Shown: positions 2 through 49,571 of the stretch, one piece after another
Position numbering within the stretch: the first letter of the stretch is position 1
Layout: every line of letters starts with the position of its first letter
DNA from: Pseudomonas sp. FP198
GTDB taxonomy: Bacteria > Pseudomonadota > Gammaproteobacteria > Pseudomonadales > Pseudomonadaceae
Direction of reading: 5' to 3'
Assembly (NCBI RefSeq): GCF_030687895.1
Contig: NZ_CP117452.1
Coordinates: 4,332,501 to 4,396,500 of the forward strand
DNA: 64,000 nt
Notes under the pieces: generated by a model
What the model saw: only the letters and a program-made list of their open reading frames with translations
Told to the model about the DNA's origin: nothing
Database searches by the model: none
Position numbers and translations under genes: made by a program

Positions 2-2827
2 TTCCTGGAAGTGAACACGCGCCTGCAAGTGGAGCATGGCGTCACCGAGCAGGTATGGGGCGTGGACCTGGTGCGCTGGATGGTGCAATTGGCCGCCGGT
101 GAACTGCCGCCACTGAGCGAACTGAGCCAAGGGCTGAAAGCCGAGGGCCACGCGATCCAGGCGCGCCTGTATGCCGAGGATCCAGGCCGGGATTTCCAGC
201 CGAGCCCTGGGCTGCTGACCGCGGTGGAATTTGCGCAGGCCAACGGCAAGGAACTGCGCATTGACACCTGGGTCGAGGCCGGTTGTCAGATCCCGCCGTA
301 CTTCGATCCGATGATCGCCAAAGTCATTCGCTGGGCGCCGACCCGCGAGCAGGCACGCCTGGGCCTGCATCAAGCGCTGGACGAAAGCCTGCTCTACGGC
401 GTCGAAACCAACCGCGTCTACCTGCAACAGATCCTGCTCGACGCGCCCTTCGCCAATGGCCAGCCCTGGACCCGCTGCCTGGAGACCCTGGCCTACCGCG
501 CCAACACCGTCGAAGTGCTCAGCCCCGGCACTCAGACCAGCGTTCAGGATTACCCCGGTCGCCTCGGTTATTGGGCGGTGGGCGTGCCGCCGTCGGGGCC
601 AATGGACAGCCGTTCGTTGCGCCTGGGCAATCGCCTGCTGGGCAACGAGGAAGGTGCGGCGGCCTTGGAAATCACCATGAGCGGGCCGCTGCTGCGCTTC
701 AACTGCGCTGCGCGAGTGGCGGTCACCGGCGCAGAAATCGCCCTGACGCTGGACGGCAAAACGGTGCCGATGGACACCCCGCTGTCGATCGGTGCAGGGT
801 CCACCCTCGCCATCGGCACGATTATTGGCGCCGGGGCGCGGAGTTATCTGTGTGTGCGTGGCGGCTTGCAGGTACCGGATTACCTGGGCAGCAAAAGCAC
901 CTTCACCCTCGGCCAGTTCGGCGGCCACGGCGGGCGAGCATTGTGCACCGGCGACGTGCTGCACCTGGCTGCGTTGGATGAGCACGTCGTGATGCCGTCG
1001 ATCCAAGAGCCGCCCCTGGTGTTGCCAGCCGTGCGGCAGATCCGGGTGATCTACGGTCCCCACGGCGCGCCGGAATATTTCACCGAGCGCTACATCCAGA
1101 CGTTCTTCGACACCGCGTGGGAAGTGCATTTCAACTCCAGCCGAACCGGCGTGCGGCTGATCGGGCCGAAGCCGGAATGGGTCCGTGCCGACGGCGGCGA
1201 AGCGGGCCTGCACCCTTCCAATATCCATGACAACCCGTACGCCATCGGCGCGGTGGACTTCACCGGCGACATGCCGGTCATCCTCGGCCCCGACGGCCCC
1301 AGCCTCGGGGGCTTCGTCTGCCCGGTGACGGTGATCGAGGCGGACCTGTGGCAACTGGGACAGCTCAAGGCGGGGGACAAGGTGCGGTTTGTGCCGGTGG
1401 AGCTGAAGACTGCCCGCGCATTGGCAATGGATTTCTCCCGTGGCGAGGGAGCTTGCTCCCGCTCGAGTGCGCAGCGCTCGCCAGACAATATTCCTGGCGC
1501 TGAAAATTTGGGGCCGCTGCGCGACCCAGCGCGAGCAAGCTCGCTCGCCACAGGGTTGGGGATTACACAGACATTGATGTCGCCTGTGGTGTTGGACATC
1601 GGCCAGGACGACACCCGCCTGGTCGCGCGGCTGTCCGGCGACACCCATCTGCTGCTTGAAATCGGCGCTCCCGAACTGGACCTGGTGCTGCGTTTTCGCG
1701 CCCACGCCTTGATGCAGGCCTTGGAGCAAAAGCACCTGCAAGGGGTGATCGACCTGACGCCGGGTATTCGCTCGCTGCAAGTGCATTACCAGCCCGAGCA
1801 ATTACCCCTGGCCGATCTGCTGGCCATCATCGCCGGCGAGTGGGACGCCGTGTGCGCCGCGCAAGACTTGCAGGTGCCGTCGCGTATCGTCCATCTGCCG
1901 CTGTCCTGGGACGATCCGGCGTGCCAGCTGGCGATCGAAAAGTACATGACCACCGTGCGCAAGGACGCGCCCTGGTGCCCAAGCAACCTGGAGTTCATCC
2001 GGCGCATCAACGACCTGCCCAACCTCGACGAAGTACAACGCACGGTGTTCGATGCCAGCTATCTGGTGATGGGCCTCGGCGATGTCTACCTTGGCGCGCC
2101 GGTCGCCACGCCGCTGGACCCGCGGCACCGGCTGGTGACCACCAAATACAACCCGGCGCGCACCTGGACCGCGGAAAATTCGGTGGGCATCGGCGGCGCC
2201 TATCTGTGCGTGTACGGCATGGAAGGCCCCGGCGGCTATCAGTTCGTCGGCCGCACGTTGCAGATGTGGAATCGTTATCGGGACGTCGCCGCATTTGACG
2301 GCAAGCCCTGGCTGCTGCGCTTCTTCGACCAGATCCGCTTCTACCCGGTCAGCGCCGATGAACTGCTGCGCATCCGTCGGGATTTCCCGTTGGGCCGCTT
2401 CGACCTGGCGATCGAACACAGCCAACTCAACCTCGCTGATTACCAGCGCTTCCTGGCCAGGGAAGCGGACAGCATCGACGCGTTCCGCGAGCAGCAACAA
2501 GGCGCCTTCGGTGCCGAGCGCGAGCGCTGGATCGCCAGCGGCCAGGCGCATTTCGACAGCGAAGAACCGGCAACCGCGCCGAGCGAAGATTCAGTGCTGG
2601 ACGAGGGCGAACTGAGCGTCGACAGCCACATCGCCGGCAACCTCTGGCAGGTCCAGGTGGAGGTGGGTGCGCGGGTCGTCGCGGGTGACGTGCTGGTGAT
2701 TCTGGAGTCCATGAAAATGGAAATCCCGGTGCTTGCGCCGATCACCGGAGTGGTCCGCGAAGTGCGCGTCCAGCCCGGTTCAGCGGTGCGCGCCGGGCAA
2801 CGCGTGGTGGTGCTGGAACGTGACTGA
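2..2827 (+). CDS. uca: Urea carboxylase, 3' part (5' end outside window)
   Basis: Biotin-dependent, ATP-dependent carboxylation of urea to allophanate, the first step of the urea amidolyase route. The visible 941 residues open inside the biotin carboxylase domain (FLEVNTRLQVEHG motif). From about residue 169 comes the KipA/AHS2-type domain (SVQDYPGRLGYW, GVPPSGPMD), from about 530 the KipI/AHS1-type domain (DDTRLVARLSGDTH), and at the C-terminus a biotinyl domain with the ESMKME biotinylation site near residue 904. This domain order separates urea carboxylase from acetyl-CoA and pyruvate carboxylases. Allophanate hydrolase follows after 22 bases, which supports the call. Odd feature: a REP pair is translated in frame in the linker between the two Kip-like domains (about residues 480-517). 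Confidence 0.93.
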   Translation, partial: FLEVNTRLQVEHGVTEQVWGVDLVRWMVQLAAGELPPLSELSQGLKAEGHAIQARLYAEDPGRDFQPSPGLLTAVEFAQANGKELRIDTWVEAGCQIPPYFDPMIAKVIRWAPTREQARLGLHQALDESLLYGVETNRVYLQQILLDAPFANGQPWTRCLETLAYRANTVEVLSPGTQTSVQDYPGRLGYWAVGVPPSGPMDSRSLRLGNRLLGNEEGAAALEITMSGPLLRFNCAARVAVTGAEIALTLDGKTVPMDTPLSIGAGSTLAIGTIIGAGARSYLCVRGGLQVPDYLGSKSTFTLGQFGGHGGRALCTGDVLHLAALDEHVVMPSIQEPPLVLPAVRQIRVIYGPHGAPEYFTERYIQTFFDTAWEVHFNSSRTGVRLIGPKPEWVRADGGEAGLHPSNIHDNPYAIGAVDFTGDMPVILGPDGPSLGGFVCPVTVIEADLWQLGQLKAGDKVRFVPVELKTARALAMDFSRGEGACSRSSAQRSPDNIPGAENLGPLRDPARASSLATGLGITQTLMSPVVLDIGQDDTRLVARLSGDTHLLLEIGAPELDLVLRFRAHALMQALEQKHLQGVIDLTPGIRSLQVHYQPEQLPLADLLAIIAGEWDAVCAAQDLQVPSRIVHLPLSWDDPACQLAIEKYMTTVRKDAPWCPSNLEFIRRINDLPNLDEVQRTVFDASYLVMGLGDVYLGAPVATPLDPRHRLVTTKYNPARTWTAENSVGIGGAYLCVYGMEGPGGYQFVGRTLQMWNRYRDVAAFDGKPWLLRFFDQIRFYPVSADELLRIRRDFPLGRFDLAIEHSQLNLADYQRFLAREADSIDAFREQQQGAFGAERERWIASGQAHFDSEEPATAPSEDSVLDEGELSVDSHIAGNLWQVQVEVGARVVAGDVLVILESMKMEIPVLAPITGVVREVRVQPGSAVRAGQRVVVLERD
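1440..1551. repeat. REP pair (REPIN) inside the urea carboxylase gene
   Basis: The left arm begins GTGGCGAGGGAGCTTGCTCC and the right arm ends GAGCAAGCTCGCTCGCCAC, facing each other around an imperfectly paired middle. It is the same element type as those at 19776, 22060 and 49443. It lies wholly inside an open reading frame and is translated as an Arg/Ser/Ala-rich linker without a stop codon. Confidence 0.88.
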
Positions 2828-4638: not shown

Positions 4639-4697
4639 GTGGCGAGGGGATTTATCCCCGCTGGGCGGCGCGACGTTTCGCTAAATCCCCTCGCCAC
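4639..4697. repeat. REP pair, GTGGCGAGGGGATTTATCCCC family
   Basis: Two facing arms, GTGGCGAGGGGATTTATCCC on the left and AAATCCCCTCGCCAC on the right, lie in the gap after allophanate hydrolase. The same family recurs at 47939-48054. Confidence 0.85.
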
Positions 4698-4780
4698 GAT
4701 CTTGCAAAGCTGTAAATCCGAATGCCTTTTCTTACAGGGCCACTAAACTGATTCCATCGGGTCACTCCAAGGGAATCGCC

Positions 4781-19775: not shown

Positions 19776-19871
19776 GTGGCGAGGGAGCTTGCTCCCGCTC
19801 GACTGCGAAGCGGTCGCCATTTAAGCGATGGGACCGCTTCGCGCTCCAGCGGGAGCAAGCTCACTCGCCAC
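19776..19871. repeat. REP pair, GTGGCGAGGGAGCTTGCTCCC family
   Basis: The arms GTGGCGAGGGAGCTTGCTCC and GAGCAAGCTCACTCGCCAC face each other. The middle also pairs (GCGAAGCGGTC with GACCGCTTCGC). Confidence 0.88.
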
Positions 19872-22059: not shown

Positions 22060-22179
22060 GTGGCGAGGTAGCTTGCTCCCGCTCGGCTGCGAAGCAGTCG
22101 CCTGATTTCAGGCCTGACTCAACCCTTCAGACCGATGGGGACCGCTTCGCGCTCCAGCGGGAGCAAGCTCCCTCGCCAC
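22060..22179. repeat. REP pair, GTGGCGAGGGAGCTTGCTCCC family
   Basis: Left arm GTGGCGAGGTAGCTTGCTCC (one change) and right arm GAGCAAGCTCCCTCGCCAC face each other. Confidence 0.87.
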
Positions 22180-47882: not shown

Positions 47883-47938
47883 AAACAGTCCTTCGAAAAA
47901 TGGGAAGCCTCTATGGCCAGATATTCCTGTGGCGAGGG

Positions 47939-48054
47939 GATTTATCCCCGCTGGGCTGCACAGCAGCCCCAAACAGTCGACTCGATCTGCCTGACACACC
48001 GAGTTGCGGATCAGGGGCGCTTCGCACCCCAACGGGGATGAATCCCCTCGCCAC
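47939..48054. repeat. REP pair inside the pca gene row
   Basis: GTGGCGAGGGGATTTATCCC and its facing arm (GGGGATGAATCCCCTCGCCAC, given here in parts: GGGGATGAATCCCC then TCGCCAC) belong to the family seen at 4639, here between pcaT and pcaB. Confidence 0.85.
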
Positions 48055-49442: not shown

Positions 49443-49571
49443 GTGGCGAGGGAGCTTGCTCCCGCTCGGCTGCGTAGCAGTCGCAAAACCAGGCTGCGCG
49501 CTGCTTTGATACACCGCGTCGCCTGCCATGGGCTTGCTGCGCAAGCCAGCGGGAGCAAGCTCCCTCGCCAC
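49443..49571. repeat. REP pair between pcaG and pcaT
   Basis: GTGGCGAGGGAGCTTGCTCC and GAGCAAGCTCCCTCGCCAC face each other around a 90-base GC-rich middle that also pairs in part. Confidence 0.88.

Follow-up and report, generated by a model that had tools for sequence, protein, structure and literature searches.

In-frame REP palindromes in an interdomain linker of Pseudomonas urea carboxylase: a probable site of recurrent landing and remodelling

The 64,000-nucleotide (nt) stretch of Pseudomonas sp. FP198 analysed here (contig NZ_CP117452.1, positions 4,332,501 to 4,396,500; hereafter the window) opens within a gene for urea carboxylase (UC). Between the KipA-like and KipI-like domains of this enzyme lies a facing pair of repetitive extragenic palindromic (REP) sequences that is translated in frame. 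A preliminary description, made from the letters of the window, had read this as the insertion of one REP pair into a flexible linker of one strain. Acceptance in frame by the linker holds up, but a single-strain insertion proves too narrow, as palindromes of several families occupy the linker in 173 of 215 genomes of the genus. Viewed through this sequence comparison, the window element is one case of a genus-wide pattern. The explanation held with good confidence is a tolerant linker in which REPINs (two inverted REPs and their spacer) land and are remodelled in place, in a way that is nearly neutral for the enzyme.

The window starts inside the gene. The full protein (P0001) has 1226 amino acids, and its residue numbers are offset by 285 from those counted in the window. 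The features that matter are listed by window position, with domain coordinates converted from P0001:

2..2827, plus strand: UC coding sequence, the 3' 941 codons (open frame, Pfam domains of P0001, homologues named urea carboxylase)
578..1396, plus strand: KipA-side domain, Pfam CT_A_B (PF02626, P0001 residues 478-750, E 2.8e-94)
1437..1554, plus strand: REP pair (REPIN) in frame, an inverted repeat with arms 1437-1476 and 1515-1554
1440..1460, plus strand: 5' REP arm, GTGGCGAGGGAGCTTGCTCCC, 0 mismatches to the arm pattern
1461..1530, plus strand: translated loop between the REPs (relatives L157 and L158 hold the same element type, with a 72-nt loop aligned)
1531..1551, minus strand: 3' REP arm in the opposite orientation, 2 mismatches to the arm pattern
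1628..2287, plus strand: KipI-side domain, Pfam CT_C_D (PF02682, P0001 residues 828-1047, E 1.6e-41)
2636..2815, plus strand: biotin carrier domain (PF00364, P0001 residues 1164-1223) with the motif ESMKME, read from the sequence and presumably the biotin site

The frame from 2 to 2827 runs uninterrupted through the REP pair, and the structures 3VA7 and 5I8I align to P0001 across residues 2-1223. By coordinate conversion, the REP peptide covers approximately residues 765-802 of P0001 (window residues 480-517), between the end of CT_A_B at residue 750 and the start of CT_C_D at residue 828. The in-frame pair, its place between the two domains and the integrity of these domains and of the biotin site were all claimed in the preliminary description and are borne out by the open frame and the Pfam matches; the Arg/Ser/Ala-rich insert in a flexible linker agrees with the translated sequence and with the free length of the linker described below.

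The inverted repeat consists of 40-nt arms that are 83% complementary and separated by 38 nt, with the REP pair proper at 1440-1551. Searched with a 21-base version of the arm that has one degenerate base, and allowing up to 3 mismatches, the window yields 8 matches, where shuffled sequence gives 0.01 on average; the exact 21-mer arm occurs 520 times in the host genome (265+255, the UC copy included), with 0 occurrences for the reversed control. The element has the two inverted REPs and spacer of a REPIN, and because of the 520 exact arm copies its palindrome ranks as high-copy. Unlike a typical REPIN, the copy is not extragenic, lying inside the UC frame between two Pfam domains. Nor is it a GTAG-tagged REP, as its arm starts with GTGGCGAG and not with the 5' tetranucleotide GTAG (relatives have GTAGGAG or GTGGGAG). 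As RNA the element folds with -73.7 kcal/mol (z -6.5). Further REPINs of the same family are found in the window at 19776-19871, 22060-22179 and 49443-49571.

Is translation of such an element exceptional within its family? Fifty genome places of the window REPIN family were sampled, 49 of them besides UC, and 17 of these other places sit in some open frame reaching 30 codons to either side. At 16 of the 17, no Pfam family is found in the longest spanning frame, the one that the test covers. At the 17th (window 47926-47973), a REP-like arm lies in the upstream extension of a minus-strand Lyase_1/ADSL_C frame, ahead of the domains, and probably precedes the true start of the lyase frame. The idea of more intragenic REPs, drawn from long open frames over other REPINs, was rejected on these grounds. 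That REPs are rarely coding, as the preliminary description had assumed, fits these places and is consistent with the part of the Pseudomonas fluorescens SBW25 study considered here, in which 14 of the 1,067 most abundant 16-mers overlap genes (PMC3116915). The 22 arm-to-arm copies of the window family, counted over both directions of reading, include 12, 12 and 15 that are open in the respective phases, and 6 whose length is a multiple of three; harmless insertion is therefore not rare.

Among the stretches of the protein that were compared, the palindromes mark this linker and not the others. Between the anchors used, the KipA-KipI linker measures 18-316 residues with a standard deviation of 31.8, and the same proteins provide control stretches with standard deviations of 0.0 (biotin carboxylase to KipA), 1.7 (within KipA) and 0.4 residues (KipI to the biotin carrier domain). 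The linker is REP-positive in 173 of 215 proteins, and REP-like control stretches number 0/212, 2/215 (by inverted-repeat score only) and 0/215, respectively. In an AlphaFold model of 761 residues, pLDDT stays under 50 across the insert (303-342). The KipA-KipI linker is length-tolerant and probably disordered.

Occurrence was followed in homologous loci and across the genus. Linkers were obtained from 104 of 110 loci, six being dropped as incomplete, and 44 of the 104 have a repeat match in 668 kb of non-UC DNA from the loci, 30 of the loci that supply this DNA having been picked for REP matches in the genome of the window. The same matching gives 14/1040 for random UC segments and 0/104 for shuffled linkers. 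Among the named loci listed, 80 at most, a palindrome or a repeat match is seen in linkers of Pseudomonas and Stutzerimonas (L053, L084, L108); outside these genera, the one such linker is that of a gammaproteobacterial metagenome-assembled genome (L075, 79% identity), and the 10 named Enterobacterales linkers have neither. Shorter homologues devoid of the insert come from Enterobacterales, Halopseudomonas, Acinetobacter and others, and also include P0026, P0027 and P0040. Distant enzymes are thus short and REP-free, which is the opposite of the same linker recurring without REP arms in distant UCs, the outcome named in the preliminary description as speaking against an insertion.

For the genus survey, 398 genomes of the genus to which the window belongs were drawn evenly. 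UC is present in 218 of them; 216 were fetched (two lack the second half) and one of these lies at a contig edge, leaving 215 linkers. The 173 REP-positive linkers comprise 138 by both inverted-repeat score and repeat match, 18 by score only and 17 by repeat match only. The score cut is 11 and shuffled linkers reach 9 at the 95% point, with a maximum of 12.5; since this maximum exceeds the cut, a few of the 18 score-only positives may be due to chance. The 42 negatives include 5 ambiguous cases, and 6 of the 42 (L346-L351) belong to a divergent type of UC, whose identity in the second half is 47-51%. The frame is kept in 213 of the 215 linkers, the exceptions being L315, where it is lost, and L316, where a run of N interrupts the linker. 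Among the homologous loci, straight-through translation of the UC match of Stutzerimonas stutzeri RM2 (L053) meets 5 stops, so that its frame is broken somewhere, and the match of a Pseudomonas agronomica contig (L077) stops at the REP boundary (query residue 478), near the contig end. The linker site seems to break assemblies in L077 and L316.

The elements in the linker are of several kinds. Coarse typing distinguishes 144 GTAG-type REP variants, 11 palindromes coding for PSPQPSP, 9 of GTAGCCCGGATGC type, 8 of the window's GTGGCGAG type and a single further palindrome, HALRGNA, which is taken here to be a Pseudomonas repeat. Two families stand in tandem in L014, L267 and L300, and insertion points vary by clade. 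In L300, copies of an SPVV-like peptide border the second repeat family, which looks like a duplication of the target. On a FastTree tree of UC minus the linker, with absence scored as a state, presence takes a minimum of 16 changes (shuffled mean 39), superfamily 43 (shuffled mean 67) and type 97 (shuffled mean 149). Of 22 genomes, four have the GTAGCCCGGATGC type, with 28-79 copies in G008, G014 and G028 and a single copy in G013; the GTAGCCCGGATGC-type linkers are those of G008, G014 and G028, all among the four genomes having that repeat. Judged by such copy counts, it is the host genome that supplies the repeat of its linker.

Once in the linker, the element appears to be remodelled. In 30 linkers with 22-nt arms, paired arms match at 91.3% of 13 variable columns against 66.5% when permuted (0/10000), in a permutation that does not remove relatedness, and 14 of the 30 parsed pairs match at all 22 positions. 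The sister proteins L004 and L006 (98.4% amino acid identity, divergence of 0.111 at 4-fold sites) have unlike loops and 5 arm differences, each of them compensated; their junction flanks are identical. Close relatives of the window protein, a comparison proposed in the preliminary description, share the element, hold another REP type in the same place or have lost it. Short linkers from which the element is lost occur in P0026, P0027, P0040, P0045 and P0061; P0026 and P0027 retain the apparent end of the 3' arm peptide, and L294 retains only the outer ends of the window's element type. At the other extreme, tandem 108-nt REPIN units lie in frame in L306 (599-1478, 8.1 copies, 319-residue linker) and L304 (705-1469, 7.1 copies, 284-residue linker). 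Since 108 nt make exactly 36 codons, the arrays leave the frame intact.

The loop can also be turned around. Orientation could be parsed, from both arms and the loop, in 91 of the 173 REP-positive linkers. Two loop families of 31 members each have orientations of 10:21 and 20:11, free of conflict, so that both orientations at the same site are seen between species. The loops of L164 and L170, and those of L182 and L204, are 43/43 identical yet reverse-complemented, and L224 and L225 have a common arm type with the loop inverted (29/31). Orientation changed at least 8 times per loop family on the tree, with no phylogenetic signal. The 31-nt loop is combined with different arm types and runs in either direction. 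In a search of 9 genomes with up to 3 mismatches, it is at UC in all 5 genomes that have it, and elsewhere there is one 3-mismatch match, the level of the control; since the loop is, bar that match, found at UC alone, it was probably not fetched anew from elsewhere. Taken across related species, these differences indicate that the element is remodelled in place by en-bloc or paired-arm replacement, loop inversion, unit amplification and deletion.

A possible partner for exchange lies close by. Of 20 upstream regions, 19 contain a REPIN whose end lies 104-129 bp before the inferred UC start; in the genome of the window (L352 1042 onward, G000), a GTAG-type REPIN ends 119 bp before it. In G410 and G362, the sole other genome copy of the loop (up to 3 mismatches) is located about 0.14 kb before the UC start and about 2.5 kb from the linker. 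The arm distance between a linker and its own upstream REPIN is 0.042, against 0.110 when permuted (smallest of 5000, 0.0625), in 24 pairs; these are the 24 of 38 parsed linkers with a parsed upstream REPIN, with L009 and L079 as near duplicates and GTGGCGAG-type genomes excluded. Six downstream REPINs, mostly at other loci, have distances to the linker of 0.159, 0.25, 0.295, 0.182, 0.023 and 0.386. GTAG-type arms thus look like those of the REPIN that shortly precedes the UC start, about 2.4 kb from the linker, and the arms of the window's type do not. Exchange with the upstream REPIN is likely for GTAG-type linkers, to judge from these arm distances.

What does the enzyme make of the peptide? 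In 24 non-overlapping pairs, loop divergence is 0.134, 0.141 and 0.170 at the three codon positions, and these near-equal values point to a peptide with weak sequence demands. In the same pairs, arms diverge least (0.069), below both the loop and 4-fold sites. Only pairs whose arm coordinates agree and whose loops differ by no more than 35% were used, and the arm pattern fixes about 10 positions, so that the low divergence of arms and loop is in part a product of these choices. The hairpin may have a role in the mRNA, but the account does not require one.

Taken together, the KipA-KipI linker of Pseudomonas would, by comparison between genomes, be a place where REP-type palindromes repeatedly land and are remodelled. 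REP families that populate the host genome would enter it in frame, probably by REPIN transposition through a putative RAYT/TnpA-REP transposase, and would be read, if expressed as the sequence predicts, as an Arg/Ser/Ala-rich peptide. Species differences suggest that the resident element then changes, with both arms swapped together, the loop inverted, 108-nt units multiplied or the hairpin deleted. These later changes may arise by template switching or gene conversion at the palindromic arms, for which the REPIN just upstream of the UC start would be the favoured partner in GTAG-type cases. Selection would purge versions that break the frame; the codon positions of the loop suggest that the protein tolerates the rest, the peptide being nearly neutral.

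A number of observations weigh against this account. With a mean pLDDT of 68.8 and 32 rows, the AlphaFold model is weak, and it scores low in some conserved parts too, so the case for disorder leans more on the freedom of length. In all four GTGGCGAG-type genomes examined, that of the window included, the upstream REPIN is of GTAG type. The likeness of the loop to that of its own upstream REPIN, tried as a further sign of exchange, was set aside (8/24 against a permuted mean of 4.6 and maximum of 10, hence not above permutation). The same happened to a virtual flip of the loop as proof of repeated flipping or selection, which leaves 85 of 91 frames open against 82.4 (standard deviation 2.0) for a codon-shuffle null. 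Allele exchange between species may have inflated the parsimony counts. Loop divergence (0.149) is lower than that of 4-fold sites (0.257), which is unexpected for a wholly free peptide. Finally, abundance by itself does not suffice to occupy the site, since the linker of G009 is free of REPs although that genome contains 1371 copies of one REP type.

Could repeated independent transposition suffice, with a fresh REPIN entering an emptied linker each time, its orientation left to chance, and no remodelling in place? Such a scheme accommodates the unrelated families that have landed in the linker, the clade-dependent insertion points and the short scarred linkers, and the 43-nt loops do have relatives outside UC, with a flank match in 35 of 60 'other' loops. 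However, the 31-nt loop combines both orientations with several arm types and is, at up to 3 mismatches, found at UC alone in the 5 of 9 genomes that have it, bar the one control-level match, and the sisters L004 and L006 share their junction flanks. Transposition alone is unlikely. Going beyond landing and remodelling, the site might be a live invertible REPIN locus, fed from upstream, in which loop flips and shifts of copy number within populations give several UC isoforms per strain, as in a contingency locus; this is doubtful. Rather improbable, too, is an element kept for its function, either as an mRNA hairpin that slows ribosomes between the domains or stabilises the message, or with both REPINs controlling the operon. 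The low arm divergence with pairing kept (0.069 against 0.257 at 4-fold sites, 24 pairs), the strong RNA fold and the carriage of an element by 173 of 215 genomes would suit a function, but 42 of the 215 are negative or ambiguous (6 of them of the divergent UC type), closely related proteins have lost the element, and its family, length and orientation are all free. Arm conservation, moreover, comes partly from the recognition pattern, and gene conversion can produce the same.

A single ancestral insertion in Pseudomonas, inherited and decaying since, would account for the phylogenetic signal in presence and absence (16 changes against a shuffled mean of 39). It is very hard to reconcile with 43 superfamily and 97 type changes on the tree, and is largely refuted by the unrelated families and by the perfect arms, as 14 of 30 pairs matching at all 22 positions are not what decay leaves behind. 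As for a sequencing or assembly artefact, raised in the preliminary description as a possible objection, a contig break or gap does lie at the site in L077 and L316; with the element present in 173 of 215 genomes and in single-contig genomes, that of the window included, an artefact is barely credible. Landing followed by remodelling in a tolerant linker remains the favoured reading.

Related phenomena are known. In plant chloroplast DNA, short inversions affect the loop between inverted repeats, mostly in non-coding sequence; these flips are like the UC loop inversion, but the flipped UC loop is translated in both directions. Rickettsia palindromic elements (RPE) are read in frame, and their sequences differ from the UC linker repeats. 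They are like the UC element in being palindromic repeats in open reading frames (ORFs), and differ in that they belong to another bacterial order and are spread over many genes, where UC has many families in one linker. The parts of PMC3733652 considered here place RPE within many ORFs and describe REP monomers, dimers and groups inside ORFs ('REP-decorated' proteins, with GTAG and CGTC REPs), including the recB genes of two Xanthomonas species, which have different REPs at about the same site; flexible linkers are proposed there as tolerant places for REPs (PMC3733652). Relative to those REPs, as far as these parts go, UC adds genus-wide occupancy of one linker, loop inversion, paired-arm exchange and an upstream partner. 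The main text of that paper does not mention urea carboxylase ('urea' gives 0 matches), and its Additional file 3, the intragenic REP list, may name it. In SBW25, two inverted REPs with their spacer are the proposed replicating unit, according to the part of PMC3116915 used here. The UC element shares this two-REP architecture, but is coding, where the most abundant 16-mers of SBW25 seldom overlap genes.

A literature search, to which Additional file 3 of PMC3733652 did not belong, gave no match for genus-wide occupancy of a linker by several families, a loop inversion read both ways, paired-arm exchange or the upstream partner. In-frame intragenic REPs are thus already known, and the recurrent, invertible case of the UC linker was not found in print. 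It would represent a selfish repeat population colonising a protein, with several unrelated palindrome families in one linker of most UC-bearing species of the genus and the gene left open. With a single site and known flanks in hundreds of species, the linker offers a natural record of REPIN movement, arm exchange, inversion and amplification, which makes the poorly understood spread of REPs testable. For annotators, it accounts for the variable R/S/A-rich stretch in Pseudomonas urea carboxylases.

Downstream of UC, the window contains an allophanate hydrolase-like gene; immediately 3' of its stop, a facing palindrome resembling GTGGCGAGGGGATTTATCCCC was seen by eye at 4640-4699.

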